A DNA stretch of 64,000 nt from positions 992,001 through 1,056,000 of the forward strand of contig JAXBDG010000010.1 of NCBI GenBank assembly GCA_036320915.1, read 5' to 3'. Positions within the stretch are counted from its first letter, which is position 1. Every line of letters starts with the position of its first letter. Below, in pieces: positions 3,006 through 33,800 of the stretch. Under the pieces are notes generated by a model. It saw nothing but the letters and a program-made list of their open reading frames with translations, was not told the DNA's origin and searched no databases. The DNA is from Linnemannia elongata (lineage: Eukaryota; Mortierellomycota; Mortierellomycetes; Mortierellales; Mortierellaceae). A program made the translations under genes and the position numbers.

Positions 3006-4730
3006 ATGCGTTCACTCCATTACCTCTTGGCATGCTCTGCCATCCTGGTCTCTTGCTCCGAAGCATGGCAATGGCCAGACCCTGCAGCTGCTGTTCCAAG
3101 AATGCCCCAGACACCCTTTTCTTGGCCTCACCACCGCCCTTCTCATCCTCAACAACCTGATTCGACCACATTTATCCCCCAAAAACAAACTTTCAAACTG
3201 CAACATATCCTCGCCCACGGAGCACCAGGCGCCAAGAGCGCCAAGGTTTTCCGTAGCCTGGCAGTTGATCAAGAGATCCGACTCCAGATGGTCCAGGTCA
3301 ACAGCCTCCTTGCTGCCGGAAGCCCCAGTCCTGGAACGACTTTTGAGCACTCTGTCGCCGATACTTTCTTCCCTATGGACGGAGGCGAAGACGATGACGA
3401 TAATGATGACGACGCCCATTCACAGGGAACAAACAACAACAACGTTTTCCCTCTTCCCTGGAAACGAGTCCCTAATGCCGAAGATCATTCAACGGTGGTA
3501 TCGATGGTTCGGATGGCACTCGATTGTTATGTCGATCCCAAGAGACAGGGGTGGGTCGACATTGGAGACAACTGGGATGTATCGACCGAGATTGGATGGC
3601 TCGAGGCTGGTCTGAGAGGATATATTTTTGCATCGGAGGATCAGAAGACGATCGTCATCGGTATCAAGGGTACCTCCCTCAAGCTCTTTGGCACTGGCGG
3701 TGGTCCCACCGGCAACAACGACAAGTTGAACGTGCGTCTCTGTGTTTGTTTTGTCACCCCCATCACAAAATTTCTGTTCGCATGAATTAGTGGTGAATAA
3801 GAGAGCTAAGCAACCTTGTTTTAAACAATAGGACAACAAAATGTTTTCGTGCTGCTGTGGCAAGGTCGATCGGACCTGGTGGGGAGTTTGCGGATGCTAC
3901 ATGGGTGGAAACAGCTGCAACCAGCAGTGTCTTGTCGACGATGCGAGGAAAGACCTTGACGAATCCGAGAGCTACTACGCTGTGGGCCTTGTAAGCCAGG
4001 ATCCCTCTTTTTCCTTTTTGAATCTTTCTCTCCTTGTTTGTTTGCTTGATTACCTGCCTCCCTCCTGATACCATGATCCTCTCGTTTTGAATGTCTTTTG
4101 ATCGTCTATAGAAAGTTGTTTCGGCTGCAAAGGTGTTGTACCCACATGCTAGCATTTGGCTGACAGGCCATTCTTTGGGTGGCAGCGTTGCTTCTTTGTT
4201 GGGAATCAGAAAGGGCTATCCTGTCTTTACTTACTCATCCCCTGGAGATGTTCGTTATGGCCAAAAGGTCGGCCTCATCAAACCCCATCTGAAGGAGTCT
4301 GATCTCAAAAAGATGCCCGTCTGGCAGTTTGGACACACCGGTATGATTGCTACTCTTTTTCTTTCTCTCCATGCTACATGTTCTAATTCTATGCTGGCCG
4401 CATTTTAATTTTGGCCCATTCAATCCCTCGCATTCATACATATTTCTATGATAAATAGGCGACCCAATTTACATGGGAACGTGTAATGGAGCGACATCGA
4501 CCTGCTACTCTGCAGGCTACGCGATGGAGACCAAATGCCACCTGGGCAGGGCTTGTATCTATGACACCATGACTGAGCTCGGCTGGGGACAAGACATCAG
4601 GGGTCACACCATCTTCAAATTCATCAACGTGGTCGAGAACTGGTACAATATGACCAAAGGACGCGAAGAGGTCCCCAAATGTCTCCCCCAGACCGATTGT
4701 CAGGACTGTGTTCAGTGGCAATACGTTTGA
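3006..4730 (+). CDS. ATG15: autophagy-related lipase Atg15 (461 aa)
   Basis: Vacuolar phospholipase that breaks down autophagic bodies and multivesicular-body vesicles. Exons are 3006-3731, 3832-3990, 4112-4340 and 4459-4730, with intron phases 0, 0 and 1. The N-terminus is a short hydrophobic segment (MRSLHYLLACSAILVS), fitting the single membrane anchor by which the family reaches the vacuole through the MVB route. The class-3 lipase nucleophile motif GHSLGG spans a splice-proximal part of exon 3, with the serine near residue 316. The family-diagnostic C-terminal stretch GDPIYMGTCNG, followed by CYSAGYAMETKCH, is in exon 4. A low-complexity Asp/Asn insert lies near residues 125-145. It is slightly shorter than the yeast protein (about 520 aa). 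The ATG at 3006 directly precedes the hydrophobic segment; the frame is open upstream but that part is leader-like. Confidence 0.92.
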
Positions 4731-22031: not shown

Positions 22032-22525
22032 TGTGATTTAAGTTGCTTGTGTTGAGGGTAAACGTGAGTGTTTAGCAATGCTGATGGATAAAAGATAGAG
22101 GACTGAGAACGAAAACAGAAGAGATGTCCGAGTCAGTCAGTCCTAGTTTTAGTGTGAGTAGGTGCGAGTTGAAAGTGAAAAAGTGATTGCGATGGGGGCA
22201 AAGAGGATGGAGTGGAGAAAGAGAAGGAGCAAAAGGGGAGGTGGAGAGTAGAGAGAGAGGAAGAGATATAAAAAGAAAGAGAGGCAGACTGGTGGCGGAA
22301 ACAAAGAAGGCAAAAGAGGTGGAAAAGGTAAAGGAAAAAAGAGAAGGCAAAGACAAAAGAGGAAACCAAAGGGGAGGAGCGAGAGTGGACGTGGGTCTGC
22401 AAAGTGAACGTACGAGGAGAAAGAGACAAATGGTTTGAGAGCAGTCACCCCCTCCTCTCCTCCCCTCCCCAGTGGTCTGTGTGTGCCGTGCTCGCGGTAA
22501 TTTTGCATGACCAAATTACAATCTT

Positions 22526-24377: not shown

Positions 24378-24385
24378 GGGTGTCC
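24378..24385. repeat. 8-bp target-site duplication, left copy
   Basis: GGGTGTCC abuts the outer base of the left TIR. An identical octamer follows the right TIR at 30485-30492. Confidence 0.85.
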
Positions 24386-24836
24386 TAGTCTCGCTTCCAT
24401 CCCCTCCCCTCGTGGGTTAGAATCCAATTCCTTCGCGCAGCGAAGACCTCACGCAGTGAGGGTCTGGGTCAAAATTTTGAGTTATTGGCGGAGCGGGTCG
24501 TAAAACCAAAAAGGAAGGTTGTTAAGGGTTTCTCCCCCAATAGCAAGGCAGTTAAGGGTCTTTTACTCCCCAAAAGCAAGGCTGCTCGTTCTCACACTCG
24601 CACTGTTCATCTCTCTTCATCATCTGATTGCCCTCATCAACGCTTGTCATCTCTGTAGTTCATCCCCCTTTCTCTCTGCTTCCCTCAGCCTAAGTAAATA
24701 AAACTCGCTTCTCTCTCCTTTCATATCCCCACTAGCCATATTTACAGCTCTCTCTATCCCTACCAAACACCGCTTCAAAGCCAGCGCCTTCCGACTGTTC
24801 TCTCTCTCTGCCGTCGCCTTTTGCTATTGTCACTGC
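24386..24836 (+). repeat. left terminal inverted repeat (451 bp)
   Basis: It matches the reverse complement of 30033-30484 almost perfectly. Substructure includes two adjacent hairpins with 6-bp stems and the same GCA loop: CTTCGC-GCA-GCGAAG at 24431-24445 and CCTCAC-GCA-GTGAGG at 24447-24461. A 12-bp palindrome TCAAAATTTTGA is at 24469-24480. Two imperfect ~30-bp direct repeats start GTTAAGGGT at 24521 and 24551. A TAAATAAAA sequence near 24695 and CT-rich DNA toward the inner edge look promoter-like. The DUF6589 start codon is 46 bp inside the inner edge. Confidence 0.9.
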
Positions 24837-24881
24837 TCCTTCAATTGCTTGCCTTACACCGTACTCCAACCTCCTTATATC

Positions 24882-27762
24882 ATGCAATTTACTGTACTAA
24901 GCGGCGGTGTGAATGACAGCGGCGAAGCATTTATGACAACCAATGCCGCCTCCCCTCCCAAGCGCAAGAGACGAACGAAGGTGGAGATTGTCAACGGTGA
25001 GGCAGCGAAACTTATGGCCGTTTTCAATGTGTTGTCGAAGGAGAAGCTATCCATATCCGATTTTTTGTGCGCTACTTTCACCTCCCCACAGGAGCTCATC
25101 AAGACCAAGGTCGGGCAGTTTTATGCAACAAATGGACCAGCCAGAATCCTTCGGATTTGGGGAGGAGATCTGGAAAGCACTGATAACGACAAGAGTTTGG
25201 CGGAGGCGGCAATTGAACTAGTCGGCGAACGTGTTCAAGCTGATTTGAGAAACACCGCCAACGACAAGAAACTGCGACATCCAGCAAACAACATCAGTTA
25301 CAAGACCATCAAGACATTCTCGCTGGATCGCCTCCGACATTCTCTCAAACAATCAGCACCCAATATCATACTATTGCTGGAAACAATGATACCTAGAGAA
25401 AAACCAGCGCCAGGTTCCGTGGCAGGATGGAAGCCAAAAGATATGCAGAGGAAGGCCTCTGTACAAAGAGATCGATCGTCTTCTAAAAGGGCGAAGACGG
25501 CCTTGATAGCAGACGATCAGTTGCCTTCTACCGGAGCGGGGATGACATTGATAGAAGAGGATCAATTGCCTTCTACAAGAGCGAGGACACCGCCGGACAT
25601 GGAGATGGAATCGCTGTCACTGCCCTATCCTAAGTTCGGCAAAACGGTCTTTACACACGATTTACCAACAACTCTGCCGCGTGGTCCGGATTCCGGCTCG
25701 GAAACAGATTCTGACTTGGAGCCTGCTATGGAGATGTTACATCTTCGGTCTGACCTGGCGTTAAGCTTGGATCAAATGATGGCACATGATTTTGAATGGG
25801 AGGACGAGCTGGATCCACATCCCGAGGCGGACCCGCGCTGCTTTATTGTAGTTGTGGCTAGTATCTTGGCTTTTATGAAGAGTCAACAAACCAACTACTT
25901 ACAGATGATGATTGGTAAGATGAAAGGCTTTGAGACCTCGAAACCATGTAATCGAATTTGCAAGACAATACTGACTTATGTTCATTTACCTGCTAGGGGC
26001 CCATCTACGAGGTCAAGCATGTCCAAAACGCTTGATAAAGCTCCTATCCATGATTGGACTGAGTATGTCATACTCTACCACAACCTCCTGTTTAAAATCA
26101 CTGGCAAGGGACAACCTCTTGAGGATGCACAGGGCAGGAGGGAAGCATACAATGTATTTCTTATACGACAATATCAACCGCCGCAGACAGCAACATCATC
26201 AAAGGAGCAACAAGAGAAACAGGATGGAAAGCGAAACCTCTGGCACCTTAGTCATTGGAGAAGGTCTCGGCGAGGAACTATCGCTTGAAACCCCTCGTGA
26301 TCCCCCTTGCCTAGGCGACATCATGCTCAAAAAGAATGATACAAGTTATTTCCGCCACATCTATCGGTCGCATGTTCTTAACGCCATCCGTGCATATCGA
26401 ACGCTGAACGACAACGACTTGAAGATGTTTGACATTCCTCCATTGAATCTATTGCCGATCAAGCGCACCAAAGCTTACGAGTTGGCGATTATGGACATCG
26501 ATCAGGCGACGATAGAGGGGAACAAGCAAGTTATAGAACAGATGCGCACCGTTCTCGGCAAGTCCAAGGGATCGTTCAAGCACCTTAAGATGATCCTAGC
26601 CGGAGACCAACTGACGATATCCAGGATTCTATCCCTACAACATCGCAGCATCGGCGAGCTGACATACTTTGACCAGATGCAGTGGGCGATACCTGTTCTT
26701 CAGCTCTTTCATATGCAGATGATCCTTTCAGCAGCAATTCTCAACACTCACTATGGACATGTCTCGGCTCCAGGATCGTTGGCCTTCTACATCAGCACAC
26801 TGGGGCGCAAGAAACTGAACCGGGATAAGCCATGCTACCGTACGAATGACGAGTTTTTGAGGATCGTATTCCGAGCGATGGTTGGGCAGCTGTGGCAACA
26901 CATGGAAGTACCCATCAGTGGAGCCGATCTAGCATCAGATGATATGGTTGTTAATGAACTCAACCATGTTGTCGACTCGTCCCTGAATAACTCCACAGCC
27001 CTTTCCAGGACCAACTCCATCACCAACACCAACGCCCTGCTGTTCATCAAGGACATGGCAGTATATATTGAATTCTGCACAGCAATCAAGCTCGGAGACA
27101 TCGGACGAGTCGAACTAATCCTCAAGCGACTCACAATAATGTTTCAGTCTGGCAAAAACAAGAATTATGGGCATGAGTTATTGCGCCTCAACTTCAACAT
27201 GCAGCATAAATGGTCCGAGGCCAGAAAGTTGGCCATCTTTTCGTCCATGCTGATGAACACTACAGGTCTCCCAAACCGATGGATCCCCAGCGACCTGTAT
27301 CAAGAACATAATAACCTTCTCATCAAGCAGACCCATGCAACGGTTGGCAACAACAAATCAGCGGCAACATATATCACCCCTTTGATCCGCATGTTTCGGG
27401 TGATCGACAACATCCTTGGCAGGGAATTCCGACTGCCCGCAAACTCCAAATATCACAGAATCACCAAAATGGACGAGGACATTCAAATCGTGATGAGGTC
27501 GCTAAAGGAATCCAACATTCTCACCACTACACGCCACCCCAGCCAGCATGATGCCCATCCATTCGCGCAGATACCCGTAGTCGACATGATGACAACAGGT
27601 TGCAACAAGTTGACTAATGGAGGTTACAAAAGGTTTCGTAGTCGCTTGGAGGATGAGGGGAGAGGAGAATTTGCGGAGGACGATCTTCTGGAGGATCTTC
27701 TGGACGGGCTCGAGGATGAAACGAACGAGGCAGAAGAGTATATCAATGCTGTCTTTGGATAA
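24882..27762 (+). CDS. DUF6589 protein, candidate transposase (932 aa)
   Basis: Exons are 24882-25914 and 25997-27762 (phase 1; intron 82 nt, GTAAGA...CTAG). The N-terminal part (residues ~20-110) has KRKRRTK, then a helical region with SDFLCATF and GPARILRIW typical of these fungal proteins. A low-complexity linker (residues ~190-300) has a repeated DDQLPST/EDQLPST motif. The DUF6589 core follows: YDNIN (Asp402), AGDQLT (Asp548), LFHMQM (His583), KDMAVYIEFCTAIKLGD (Asp697, Glu703, Asp712), NYGHELLRL and LYQEHNN. The tail is acidic. Spaced invariant acidic residues would suit a DDE/RNase-H-type nuclease, but no fold has been shown from this sequence. The frame is open 11 codons upstream without an ATG. 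It is the only gene in the element that could supply strand transfer. Confidence 0.85.
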
Positions 27763-27995
27763 ATAAATATTGTTGATTTACTGATTTTTGTAAAGAATTT
27801 TGATTGCGATTAGCAGCCATCGAAACTTGGCCAACGTATGCTGAACCAATTGTGACGAACGCTAGGAGGACTGAATACCGTTTGTGTTGGGGATGCTTCC
27901 GTAAGCTGAAGTAGGGTTGTATGGATCACTTTACTCATAAAACGAACGCTTGGTGCATTTGACTGATTGCCAGTGTTGGAATGATCCAGGCCTTG

Positions 27996-30002
27996 TCAAT
28001 CTTCCATCGTATTTTCAAAGTACATAAGCGGCGGATAATCGATATCGCCATCGTCATCCAGGAGTGGCAAAGAGTCTGGGTCGTCGCTGAAATCGTCCTC
28101 CAGTGTCTCATCAACATCATCATCAATGTCCGTGAATGAGGAATAGTCGAGATACTGGAAATCGTCGTCAGATGATGAGTAATTGAATCCATCGCCCAGA
28201 TCCTCAGGCAATGGATCGTTAAGAAAGTTGGACTGAGGATTGTCGATATCCTTGAACGGAGGATTGTCGATATCCTTGGGCGGAGGACTGTCAATGTCCT
28301 TGGGTGGGGGATTGTTGAATTTGTCGTTTAAGGCAATGAGCATGTCAACCAGTCGCTTCTTGGAGCCAACAATCCACTCCGACCAGTCTATCATGTTGTC
28401 GATACTGTCGCAGGTGGAGATGCGACCAATCTTGGCGGAAAGTTTGTTGACATTACTATCATCCATAATTGTCTCAAGAACATAGCTCTCTGACTCTCCT
28501 GCAACTCCTCTCAACTCCTTGCGCCTCCAGCCTTCAATCAATTTTTTTGCCTCTAACTTTTGTGCCTGAGAACGGGAACGTGAGCGCTTCGGGGCTGAGT
28601 TTGACGGAAGCTTTTGGAGAGCTGTTGTTCCGGCATTATTGGAATCGGCAGAGCCTGCATGAGTTTTGTTGAGCCTGGAATCACAAACATCACAGCAGTT
28701 GTCGACCTCTTTATGTTTGTTGTCAAAGACTCGGTTGAATATCTTTCTGCGACAGTCGTCGGTGTTGATGTAATCCCTGAGGTTGTGATCAATGCTGGCT
28801 TGTTTAGCGGTACCACGCAACACGCATAAAATACCAACGCCTCGAAGTGCTGAAGATCGAGCTGCACGTCCAAGACGTTGAGCGAGCGTGGTAATATTAG
28901 TCGGGCACTTGACTTGAACCACTCGAATGATGTCGTCAATGTCACATCCCATGCCTGCGGCCTCCGTAGACAACAGTACCCGGATCTGGCCCTTCCTGAA
29001 TCTCGACATGTAGAGTTCCTTGGTTTCGAATGTGAGCCCTGCATAATAATAGCCGATCCAACGCGGGTTTTTATTGCTGGTCCTGGCTTTTTCAATAAGT
29101 CGCTTGTAAACTCTGACCAGAGTTGCGGTGGAGTCGAAGTAGACGACTGACTTTTTGAAATCCAGAAGAAAGTCTAAGCTCTCCATGCAAGTGTTGTTGT
29201 CCTTGAATTGTCTGACCTCATATCTGATATTTGGGCGATCGGTATTCCCTCTAACGACTGGGACATCCTTGCTGAAATGAAGACTCGTAATAACATCATC
29301 CAGAATCTGACCATGTAGCGTTGCCGAGACTGCGATAAATGCCACACCGGGCGGGACTCTACAACGCAGCTCTCCTATCAAAGCATAGTCCGTCCTGAAG
29401 TCCGAGCCCCAGGTACTTATGCAGTGCGCCTCGTCAATAACTACTGCCTGTACTCGCGTTCGCCATCTTGGATTCTCCCAAAGGGACACAAAACGGTCGT
29501 TCCCAAAGATGGTCTCCGGGGACATAAATACAGCTTGATACTCTCCGGCCGACAGCGCGCTCTCCAAGGTACTCGGCAGGTCCACACGACTATGAATGCA
29601 GATACTCTTGATGTCTGCTGAGTGAAGTTTTCGGTGTTGTTCCTCCATAAGTGCAATCAAGGGCGAGATCACGACAATGACACGGCTTTTCCATAACACC
29701 AAAGGAAGGAAATAAGCCAACGTCTTCCCCCAGCCGCAGCCTGCAATAAGAATGCAATCCTCTCCCCGACCTATATGCTTGACGACGGCCTCTTGTTGCT
29801 TCTTGGGCTCAAATCCAAAGTATTCTTGACACAACTCTGAGGCGTTCGCTGGATACACACACACTTGTTTGAACGGGTTCGACTCGATGCTCTGGTGCGA
29901 CTGGATTGTTGCAAAGCCTAATCGAGCTGTCATTCCTTTTTTCTTGCGTCTACGCACTGCTTGAGTGGCCTTCCTCACGATAGCCTTTCTCCCGATAGCC
30001 AT
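27996..30002 (-). CDS. RecQ-like DNA helicase of the element (668 aa)
   Basis: An intronless superfamily-2 helicase. Motifs run in order: motif 0 FGFEPKKQQEAV (~63-74), Walker A AGCGWGKT (87-94), Ia ISPLIALMEEQ, II DEAHCISTWGSDFR (190-203; the aromatic-loop region of RecQ), III AVSATLH (~224-230), IV VVYFDSTATLV, V VLLSTEAAGMGCDI, and VI AQRLGRAARS (~374-383). A Cys cluster follows (CRR...CCDVCD, ~418-442), suggesting a reduced RecQ zinc module. I see no HRDC domain. The C-terminal ~100 residues are acidic and include tandem PPPKDIDS/N-type octapeptides. The basic N-terminus (RKAIVRKATQAVRRRKKK) may be a nuclear signal. The start codon is 31 bp from the right TIR. Confidence 0.9.
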   Translation of the reverse strand: MAIGRKAIVRKATQAVRRRKKKGMTARLGFATIQSHQSIESNPFKQVCVYPANASELCQEYFGFEPKKQQEAVVKHIGRGEDCILIAGCGWGKTLAYFLPLVLWKSRVIVVISPLIALMEEQHRKLHSADIKSICIHSRVDLPSTLESALSAGEYQAVFMSPETIFGNDRFVSLWENPRWRTRVQAVVIDEAHCISTWGSDFRTDYALIGELRCRVPPGVAFIAVSATLHGQILDDVITSLHFSKDVPVVRGNTDRPNIRYEVRQFKDNNTCMESLDFLLDFKKSVVYFDSTATLVRVYKRLIEKARTSNKNPRWIGYYYAGLTFETKELYMSRFRKGQIRVLLSTEAAGMGCDIDDIIRVVQVKCPTNITTLAQRLGRAARSSALRGVGILCVLRGTAKQASIDHNLRDYINTDDCRRKIFNRVFDNKHKEVDNCCDVCDSRLNKTHAGSADSNNAGTTALQKLPSNSAPKRSRSRSQAQKLEAKKLIEGWRRKELRGVAGESESYVLETIMDDSNVNKLSAKIGRISTCDSIDNMIDWSEWIVGSKKRLVDMLIALNDKFNNPPPKDIDSPPPKDIDNPPFKDIDNPQSNFLNDPLPEDLGDGFNYSSSDDDFQYLDYSSFTDIDDDVDETLEDDFSDDPDSLPLLDDDGDIDYPPLMYFENTMED

Positions 30003-30032
30003 ACTGACAATGGGGCGAGAGAACTGAAAGGG

Positions 30033-30484
30033 GCAGTGACAATAGCAAAAGGCGACGGCAGAGAGAGAGAACAGTCGGAAGGCGCTGGCTTTGAAGCGGT
30101 GTTTGGTAGGGATAGAGAGAGCTGTAAATATGGCTAGTGGGGATATGAAAGGAGAGAGAAGCGAGTTTTATTTACTTAGGCTGAGGGAAGCAGAGAGAAA
30201 GGGGGATGAACTACAGAGATGACAAGCGTTGATGAGGGCAATCAGATGATGAAGAGAGATGAACAGTGCGAGTGTGAGAACGAGCAGCCTTGCTTTTGGG
30301 GAGTAAAAGACCCTTAACTGCCTTGCTATTGGGGGGAGAAACCCTTAACAACCTTCCTTTTTGGTTTTACGACCCGCTCCGCCAATAACTCAAAATTTTG
30401 ACCCAGACCCTCACTGCGTGAGGTCTTCGCTGCGCGAAGGAATTGGATTCTAACCCACGAGGGGAGGGGATGGAAGCGAGACTA
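30033..30484 (-). repeat. right terminal inverted repeat (452 bp)
   Basis: Inverted copy of the left TIR with one extra base in a C-run. The mirrored GCA-loop hairpins are at 30425-30439 and 30409-30423. The helicase start codon lies 31 bp inside its inner edge, so this copy most likely drives the helicase gene. Confidence 0.9.
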
Positions 30485-30492
30485 GGGTGTCC
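30485..30492. repeat. 8-bp target-site duplication, right copy
   Basis: GGGTGTCC, identical to 24378-24385, directly after the terminal CTA of the right TIR. Confidence 0.85.
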
Positions 30493-30845: not shown

Positions 30846-33800
30846 TTAGTACTTGTTAGCGGTCAACCAGGCACCGAGGCTCTCCTGCTCCCTCTCGACC
30901 CAGGCAGAGTTGACGTTCAAACCCTCAATGGCCTGATCAAGAGCACGCTGGAAATCCTTGGTGTCCTTCTCGGCAAAGAACTCGGTCACATCCTGGACGA
31001 GAGCCTTGTCCGCCAACCAGACCAGGGGGTACTTGACACAGAGACCCAACAGACCCATCGACGACTTGTATCTGTCTGAGATCAAGGTCCAGTTCTTCTT
31101 GATAAACTCCCAGGTCGACAAACGGGCCTTGGCATTTGCAGACAATCCGGCAAGGACGTAGGTGATATCCTGGGGACGGACGTCCTTCGAAATAGCCAAC
31201 TCTTGGACCTCGGCAATCAACTCAGGCTGCTGGACAGCTCCAAGGGCCAACAAAGCAACAACTTGCTGATCTTGCTTGGGGGCATTGTGGAAGTACTTCA
31301 ACACCTGACGGAACTCTTCCTCGCCGCCGTTGGTCAAGACCATTTCAAAGGCAGTCTGTCGGATCGAAGGGTGCAAAATCGACTCCTGGGAGGCATCCGA
31401 GGCAAAGATCTTGAAGCGACGCTTGGCCTCGGCAACAGTAGCAACATGTCCGGCACGGCCAGCGGTGCGCAAAATGACGTTGCGGAGACGGCTAGTCAAG
31501 TAGTCTTCCCCCTCGGGGAATTCCCATCCAAGCTTCTCCACCATCTGGTCAACCAAGTTGCGCTGGAAGTGAAGAACCTGCTGGTGAACAGTCTCGTTGG
31601 CGCCAAAAATGGCGCCAATCTCGGCAACACGCTGGGAAAGCAGGTTCCAGACGACGTAGCTGTCCTCGTTCTTGTAGTACTGGACAAGTTCCAAAAAGTT
31701 CTTGGTCTCGGTGTGACCAGACTTGGCCAACGAAGAGATATCGGCAACCAGACCAGCACGGTCGCTCAACCCAACAAGATCTGATCCAGAGAGGATAGCC
31801 TCTCCAATGCGGGCAATGGCGCTGGGAGGGTAGTTGGTCCTGAAAACTCCGCTGTAGTTCTTGTTCAACAAATAAGCGCCCTCGGGAACCTCAAACTTGA
31901 GCGAACGAGACTTCAAAGTCTGGTTGGGGTCAGCAATCGAGGCAGGCTTGGGGTGAACACCCATGGGAACCCACCAGATGGTCTCGTCCTCTTCGGGCTT
32001 TACATCGTTAGTCGACAAGTAGCGGTGCTGTTCAACAGAGACGACACCATCGGCCTCAGTGACGTCGATGATGGGGATACCAATGACACGGGTCCAGGTG
32101 TTCATGAACTCACGGACATCAATCTTGGACTCTTCCGAGAGAGCATTCCAGAGATCGTCGGTGGTGGCGTTGCTGTACTCGTGCTTCTTGAGGTAACGAC
32201 GGATTCCAGCCAAGAAGACATCGACAGTCAACCAGTTGCTCAACATACGGATGACCGAGGCACCCTTGGAGTAGGAAATGGCGTCGAAGATTTGGTGAAT
32301 CTCGTGAGGGTCGGAGACGGGGACCTCAATGGGGTGAGAGCTGCGAAGCGAATCCAAAGCAATACCGCTCTGAACGTCCGTAACGATAAAAGTGGGCCAA
32401 GTATCCCATTCGGGGAAGATGTGATCGACAGCCAAGGTTCCGACCCAGGTGGCGAATCCTTCGTTCAACCAGAGGTGGTCCCACCACTCCATAGTGACCA
32501 AGTTTCCGAACCATTGATGGGCGAGCTCGTGGGCGACAGTCGAGGCGACCTGTTCCTTGAAACGGAGATCAGAAGTCTTCTCGTCAAAGAGCAATGCGAC
32601 GGTACGGTAAGTGACAAGACCCCAGTTCTCCATGGCGCCCATGTCGAAATCGGGAACGGCGATCTGATCCAGCTTGGGGAGAGGGTATGCGGTTCCAAAG
32701 ATCTCGGAGAAGTACTCGAGGATCTTGGGGGTGATGTCGACTGCGAATTGTCCCTGCTCCTTCAATCCTGGAAGAGTGTAGACACGGCAGGTAACGGGGT
32801 TCTCGAGCTTGGTTGTGGTTGATTCGACATATTCAAACTCACCGACAGCCCATGCAACCAACTACAGCGAGAGAGATGTATGAATTAAAAATAACGGGGT
32901 GTGAATACCAACCAGCTAATAAAGTAATCTCGCCACAATATTCCCGTCCAGGTTTCCCAGTAAACCAAACAAAAAGAGACAGACATACATAGGTCGACAT
33001 GATGGGGGTCTTCTCGAAGTGGTAGGTCATCTCCTCGGGCTCGACAGCGGTGATCTGCTCGACGGGCATATTGGAGAGAGCAACAAGCTCAGATGGGACG
33101 CACAACTTGATCGAAAAGGTAGCCTTGACAGCGGGTTCGTCCCAGCAGGGGAATGCGCGACGGGCTTCGGTAGCTTCGAACTGGGTGACACCCATGACCT
33201 TGGCATTGCCCTCGGCATCCTTGTAGGAGGAGCGGTAGAAACCGGACATCTTGTCGTTCAAGATTCCCTGGAAGAGGATGTTGAAGACTGCGGGTCCCTT
33301 GGGCAGCTCCTGGTCGAATGTGAAGGTGGTGGTCTCGCGGTGTTCATCAAACGAGGTCGACGAAGCCTCATGGCTACAGTTGCAGTGAATAGATATAAAT
33401 AATAGCGGGGGTTATTCCTCGGATCGAATCATGGACTTGATAACTGAACAACAAAATGAATCCTGAGTTGCATTCCGCTGTGGTCCTTACGTGGTCTCGC
33501 CAATCTCAACTCTGCCATAGGTGATAGTCAGCTCCTTGGTGTTGATCAAGATGGTCTTGGTGGGCTCGTGGATGTCAATGCTATAGGAAGCGGAAGAACG
33601 TAACAACAATCACAGTATTAGCACTAGTATTTCTCGGCGGTTTATGTTAAAAAAAGGGGGGTGCAAGTATAAACCCCTTCCCATGTGAGGTTCACCACCC
33701 TTTCCTTCTCGTTTTCTCTCTTTCTTCGATAAAAAAAAAAACACAGCTCCAAGCCTTTCCTTCATCCCCTCTCCCCTTGAAAGCAGAAAACGTCATATCT

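Follow-up and report, generated by a model that had tools for sequence, protein, structure and literature searches.

Do two convergent genes of the fungus Linnemannia elongata, one encoding a DUF6589 protein and the other a RecQ-like helicase, form a DNA transposon with the long inverted repeats that enclose them, and if so, which of the two proteins moves it? The pair lies at positions 24378-30492 of a 64,000-nucleotide stretch of contig JAXBDG010000010.1 (assembly GCA_036320915.1, positions 992,001 to 1,056,000), which we call the window. We conclude, with a probability of roughly 0.88, that this segment is a DNA transposon of the cut-and-paste type with two genes, present here as a young copy, and that DUF6589 is its Asp-Asp-Glu (DDE) transposase. 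The preliminary description of this DNA had proposed the same role for DUF6589, which is now supported by copies with different target site duplications (TSDs), by empty sites of a sibling element and by the fold and conserved acidic residues predicted for a DDE enzyme.

Boundaries and genes of the element

The two terminal inverted repeats (TIRs), whose end points in the window were counted by hand, differ by a single C within a C-run, exactly as first described, and the reported 8-bp flanking duplication, GGGTGTCC, was confirmed on both sides (Table 1). An automated test likewise returned a TSD of 8 bp and a TIR start of TAGTCTCG; for random pairs of window positions, with seven end offsets permitted, the chance of an 8-bp TSD is 0.0003.

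Between the TIRs, open frames, splicing and Pfam matches agree with the original reading of two intact convergent genes. The DUF6589 gene matches PF20231 with an E value of 5.8e-84, and its spliced product is letter-for-letter identical to an annotated 915-residue L. elongata protein (P0001). The helicase gene matches DEAD (E 5.8e-22) and Helicase_C (E 2e-14) and carries the motifs GCGWGKT, DEAH and QRLGRAAR; the solved structures closest to its product are RecQ and human WRN, with BLM next. The left TIR ends 96 bp before the annotated DUF6589 ATG, and the right TIR lies 30 bp from the helicase ATG.

Table 1. Features of the element (window coordinates) and groups of related loci (C, contigs of the same assembly; L, loci)
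Feature	Position	Strand	Basis or remark
Left TSD copy, 8 bp, GGGTGTCC	24378..24385	.	sequence and automated TSD test
Left TIR, 451 bp, begins TAGTCTCG	24386..24836	+	repeat comparison; carries most of the DUF6589 gene 5' region
DUF6589 (predicted transposase) gene, exon 1	24933..25914	+	annotated start MTTNAASPP; further in-frame ATG at 24882
GT-AG intron of DUF6589 gene, 82 bp	25915..25996	+	spliced product
DUF6589 (predicted transposase) gene, exon 2, with catalytic candidates	25997..27762	+	Pfam, alignments, predicted structure, splicing
Catalytic candidates D385, D531, E721	26167-26169, 26605-26607, 27175-27177	+	within exon 2; codon positions derived by hand from the spliced frame
Pfam PF20231 (DUF6589) match in exon 2	26299..27456	+	residues 109-494 of frame 25975-27762
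RecQ-like superfamily 2 helicase gene, 668 residues from ATG 30002	27996..30002	-	convergent with transposase gene; Pfam, solved-structure matches, motifs
Right TIR, 452 bp	30033..30484	-	repeat comparison; carries most of the helicase gene 5' region
Right TSD copy, 8 bp, GGGTGTCC	30485..30492	.	sequence and automated TSD test
Short copies resembling miniature inverted-repeat transposable elements	C12:1245540-1246085; C12:1334064-1334633; C7:475376-475945; C10:1273446-1274015; C4:371213-371797
Repeated-target loci	L027, L050, L051, L058-L067		C28, C7, C10, C9, C4, C5, C11, C12

Copies at other sites and their duplications

Two-gene units of this kind move, and they make 8-9-bp duplications. 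Searching the same genome with the window TIR gave 14 matches; a second full element (C28:4122-10225, L009) is 99.6% identical to the window copy, with a 2-bp deletion in its DUF6589 gene and no TSD. Pfam DUF6589 has 12 matches in this genome at 10 loci, and the proposed co-occurrence of the two proteins was found at nine of them, where a convergent homologue of the window helicase adjoins the DUF6589 gene; the exception is a fragment on C6. The broader suggestion that many fungal DUF6589 genes are transposon genes therefore holds within this genome, for nearly all loci.

The nine paired loci include families whose TIRs have other lengths and largely other sequences, namely about 370 bp (C29), 999 bp (C1 and C14) and 384 bp (C28:2229149). 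The end motif TAG[G/T]CTCG is common to the window, C29 and C28:2229149 families, whereas GACGCTGT forms the ends of the C1/C14 family. Over 8,049 bp the elements on C1 and C14 do not differ at all, yet their fetched flanks do not match each other and their 9-bp TSDs are different, CCGTGACTG and GAAGCTGTG. TIR searches for three families brought up further copies, mostly short.

The further copies with different duplications that the preliminary description had predicted were thus found, their TSDs being mostly 9 bp long. A perfect TSD is present in 15 of the 18 two-ended copies scored, short ones included (5 of 7 and 9 of 9 in two scoring sets, and 1 of 2 read by eye); 13 of these are 9 bp and two are 8 bp. 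The 8-bp cases are the window copy and C28:2229149, both of which end in TAGTCTCG. Two two-ended copies lack a TSD (L009 and L024, the latter on C5), and a copy at C11:1092.6 kb, with a 9-bp TSD containing one mismatch by eye, was counted as not perfect. One-ended or decayed copies (C31, the second C29 copy, the window-family remnants on C10 and C11, and C6) and further short TIR matches stand outside this count, as does a second, wrong left end of L047, at which no TSD appeared; a 5.96-kb copy on C12 was judged from its ends alone. Five short copies of 0.55-0.6 kb, from two families and with the same ends, resemble miniature elements, and all five have a perfect 9-bp TSD.

Two relatives have an altered structure. 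L024 (C5:381677-388468) is a C29-family element without a TSD whose enlarged TIRs contain self-complementary stretches of ~335 bp. L017-L018 (C10:842120-860516) is related to the window family but decayed, and 18.4 kb separate its inverted ends; its interior holds other open frames, one of them reverse-transcriptase-like by eye, which are probably nested insertions.

A repeated target and its empty sites

The two-gene sibling element at C28:2229149-2235920 sits inside a dispersed repeat. A search with its joined flanks found uninterrupted copies of this repeat on C9 and at C28:2282677 (99%) and on C4 (95%), as well as a partial match spanning the site on C5 (97%). The sequence CCACAGGC occurs once in all four aligned repeat copies and twice around the C28:2229149 element, and a fifth, more decayed repeat copy (C4:293163) also has it once. 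For the window, C29 and C14 copies, no paralogous empty site was found in the same genome.

The dispersed repeat is a repeated target, in which the two-gene element and 0.3-kb copies occupy the same CCACAGGC(A) site. The 0.3-kb short copy is present there in two repeat copies (C7 and C11), and short scars mark the site in three others (C4:1196150, C12 and C10). The scars (L064, L065 and L067/L051) could be excision footprints, but they are accounted for equally well if a short nested copy underwent internal deletion, and we do not claim excision. Other short copies sit elsewhere within the same repeat.

Predicted fold and conserved residues of DUF6589

Structure prediction points to DUF6589 as an RNase H-fold DDE transposase closest to Hermes (hAT), P element, Transib and RAG1. 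The predicted models and VIA matches give an RNase H-like fold with a D-D-E triad. An all-helical insertion appears to split its core, an arrangement found in the same four systems, and an insertion of this kind suggests a cut-and-paste route. The likely metal-binding triad would be D385, D531 and E721. Their counterparts are invariant as D, D and E in a 7-row DUF6589 alignment; in alignments of 48 and 43 rows, the second D is invariant and the first D and the E are each present in at least 90% of rows. A QxxH, placed by eye, is conserved where some superfamilies have C/DxxH.

At E <= 1, Pfam found no model besides DUF6589 (PF20231) in the exon-2 frame and none in the exon-1 frame, and so no match to a hAT sequence model. 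A search of solved structures with the DUF6589 sequence did not match a transposase; its single match, mL103 (E 0.14), was taken as chance. DUF6589 had no match in a viral structure library at E <= 0.001, and no relatives were confirmed in viral and prokaryote contigs.

The gene pairing across species

The pairing of DUF6589 with a helicase gene is long-standing. DUF6589 relatives occur in Mortierellaceae, Ceratobasidium, Rhizoctonia, Sparassis, Panus and Infundibulicybe. When we compared, by eye, 65 DUF6589 hits with the 120 top-ranked of 5,662 helicase hits, four DUF6589/helicase pairs had the same source and contig size (10,854, 9,730, 5,680 and 5,118 bases). Each pair presumably lies on one contig, because source and contig size agree and because the locus tags of the first pair (10,854 bases), BG004_000310 and 000311 of Podila humilis, are consecutive. 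Across nine linked pairs, five of this genome and the four just named, the protein distances of DUF6589 and helicase correlate (r 0.92, Mantel p 0.0005), two close pairs driving much of the correlation. In a tree of 27 chosen rows, the Mortierellaceae helicases group with Agaricomycete ones, apart from bacterial RecQ. A Mytilus helicase was considered as an animal member, but we make no claim for it, as it joins bacterial RecQ in this tree on a long branch flagged unsafe.

Relation to described transposons

The preliminary description regarded the element as undescribed and possibly as a new superfamily. This was not established: fungal helicase-encoding DNA transposons, AcademH and KolobokH, have already been described, and AcademH agrees with the element in its accessory gene, in its host range and, for most copies, in TSD length. 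AcademH elements encode a helicase and have 9- or 10-bp TSDs (PMC10045372), are placed in the Academ superfamily with credit to Kojima 2020 (PMC10045372, PMC10799480) and are reported from Basidiomycota, Ascomycota and Mucoromycota (PMC10799480); DEAD/Helicase_C domains are named there for AcademH, KolobokH or Helitron (PMC10799480).

The most likely classification is the AcademH lineage or a close sister. The chances are somewhat better than even that the element is simply an AcademH member, in which case DUF6589 would be Pfam's name for the Academ transposase; that would bear on novelty only and leave the mechanism unchanged. Both are fungal DNA transposons with a helicase and a TSD of about 9 bp, the length of 13 of the 15 perfect TSDs here. 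The helicase matches the DEAD and Helicase_C domains, and DUF6589 relatives are found in Mortierellaceae and Agaricomycetes. However, two of the 15 TSDs, including that of the window copy, are 8 bp and none is 10 bp, and the likeness is taken from descriptions of AcademH in citing papers. A cysteine zinc finger is ascribed to Academ transposases, whereas cysteine is absent among the listed conserved DUF6589 columns.

A more tentative alternative is that DUF6589-helicase elements form a separate, undescribed DDE superfamily in the hAT/P/RAG-like structural class. It would accord with the 8-bp TSDs of the window copy and C28:2229149, with the absence of a second Pfam model in the exon-2 frame, and with the fact that no paper on DUF6589, PF20231 or IPR046496 was found in the literature searched. 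That literature is far from complete, with the key AcademH paper and most Repbase and subscription literature lying outside it, and the close fit of the AcademH features weighs on the other side. In its fullest form, which as a whole is less likely than not, Mortierellaceae and Agaricomycete DUF6589 genes would encode the transposases of this separate superfamily, the long TIRs would be paired promoters of transposase and helicase, and the helicase would have co-evolved with the transposase and been left as a stand-alone gene near contig ends.

Other known systems were also compared. KolobokH is reported to lie next to telomeres in Cladobotryum, where an uncharacterized gene accompanies two genes for RecQ-like helicases (PMC10989895); like the element here it is a fungal DNA transposon with a RecQ helicase, but its TSD is the 4-bp TTAA, whereas ours are 8-9 bp, none TTAA, and the genes here are convergent. 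The systems nearest to the predicted fold, hAT (Hermes), P element and Transib/RAG1, differ in that DUF6589 has no sequence match to a solved transposase and no Pfam transposase model, and in the extra helicase gene, long TIRs and mostly 9-bp TSDs found here; hAT elements have 8-bp TSDs, and here the window copy and C28:2229149 have 8 bp and the other 13 of 15 have 9 bp. Zisupton/KDZ resembles the window copy in the 8-bp TSD reported for Zisupton (PMC12730594), but most copies here have 9 bp, and Pfam gave the exon-2 frame no model besides DUF6589. A Helitron was rejected, as TIRs and TSDs are present and Pfam found no HUH/Y1 replication initiator domain.

Helicase-only copies

Six half elements (L010-L015, on C18, C18, C20, C17, C1 and C13) contain the helicase with one TIR. 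All share one breakpoint, at element position 3861, with identical sequence beyond it, and they look like one capture multiplied by duplication. The helicase frame is open in five of the six; the C13 copy has stops. The shared breakpoint is the end of a short tandem repeat of PPPKDID-like units at the helicase C-terminus (window 28220-28330).

These copies bear on whether the helicase itself drives movement, in Helitron-like fashion or by helicase-led replication, with DUF6589 as the accessory. We consider this very improbable: one-TIR helicase copies do exist, but they have a common breakpoint and duplicated flanks, so movement of their own is not required, the TIRs with TSDs and the DDE-like predicted fold point to DUF6589, and the helicase frame matched no Pfam domains other than helicase-type ones. 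That the locus is no transposon but an inverted segmental duplication around two host genes is less credible still and was rejected as a whole explanation for the family, for although the six helicase-only stretches lie within larger duplicated blocks and L022 and L023 have a common flank, it conflicts with the perfect TSDs of 15 copies, with the presence of one identical element at unrelated sites and with the related empty sites.

Four of the six copies (on C1, C17, C18 and C20) lie 12.1 kb from contig ends, and these ends stop at the same base. Subtelomeric placement is not claimed, because the ends carry no telomere repeat array. Subtelomeric RecQ-like helicases (TLH) have been described in fungi (PMC4522978, PMC12857005). 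The genes here resemble them in lying near contig ends in several copies, but differ in also occurring inside a transposon. The opposite end of C18 (L035, C18:319000-319843) is built from TTTTTTAGGG repeats, which may be telomeric in this species.

Proposed mechanism and implications

By analogy with known DDE transposases, we infer that DUF6589 cuts and joins DNA. After binding to the long TIRs, it would cleave at their TAG..CTA ends and join these to target DNA cut with a stagger, along what would be a cut-and-paste route; the duplications of 8 or 9 bp would result from the stagger. The TIRs supply the two genes with almost identical 5' sequence, and the genes are therefore probably expressed together, driven from putative promoters in the TIRs. 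It is plausible that the helicase assists transposition as an accessory, most likely by unwinding or processing the ends or by helping repair after strand transfer.

Predicted fold, residues and genetics together give a function, that of a DDE transposase, to a Pfam family listed as unknown. Unless there is evidence to the contrary, fungal DUF6589 annotations and their paired RecQ-like helicases should be regarded as belonging to transposons, a change that bears on gene counts and on work on how helicase genes have expanded in fungi. The role of helicases in DNA transposons can be tested on the intact copies that moved recently, among them the 8.05-kb element found unchanged at two sites. Helicase genes of transposons have also become separated from the transposase and multiplied within duplicated blocks near contig ends.

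To the left of the window element, the closest frames of at least 150 codons are two of low complexity and then one ending at 22037. To the right, a 671-residue frame on the minus strand (30846-32861) is aminopeptidase-like by eye.
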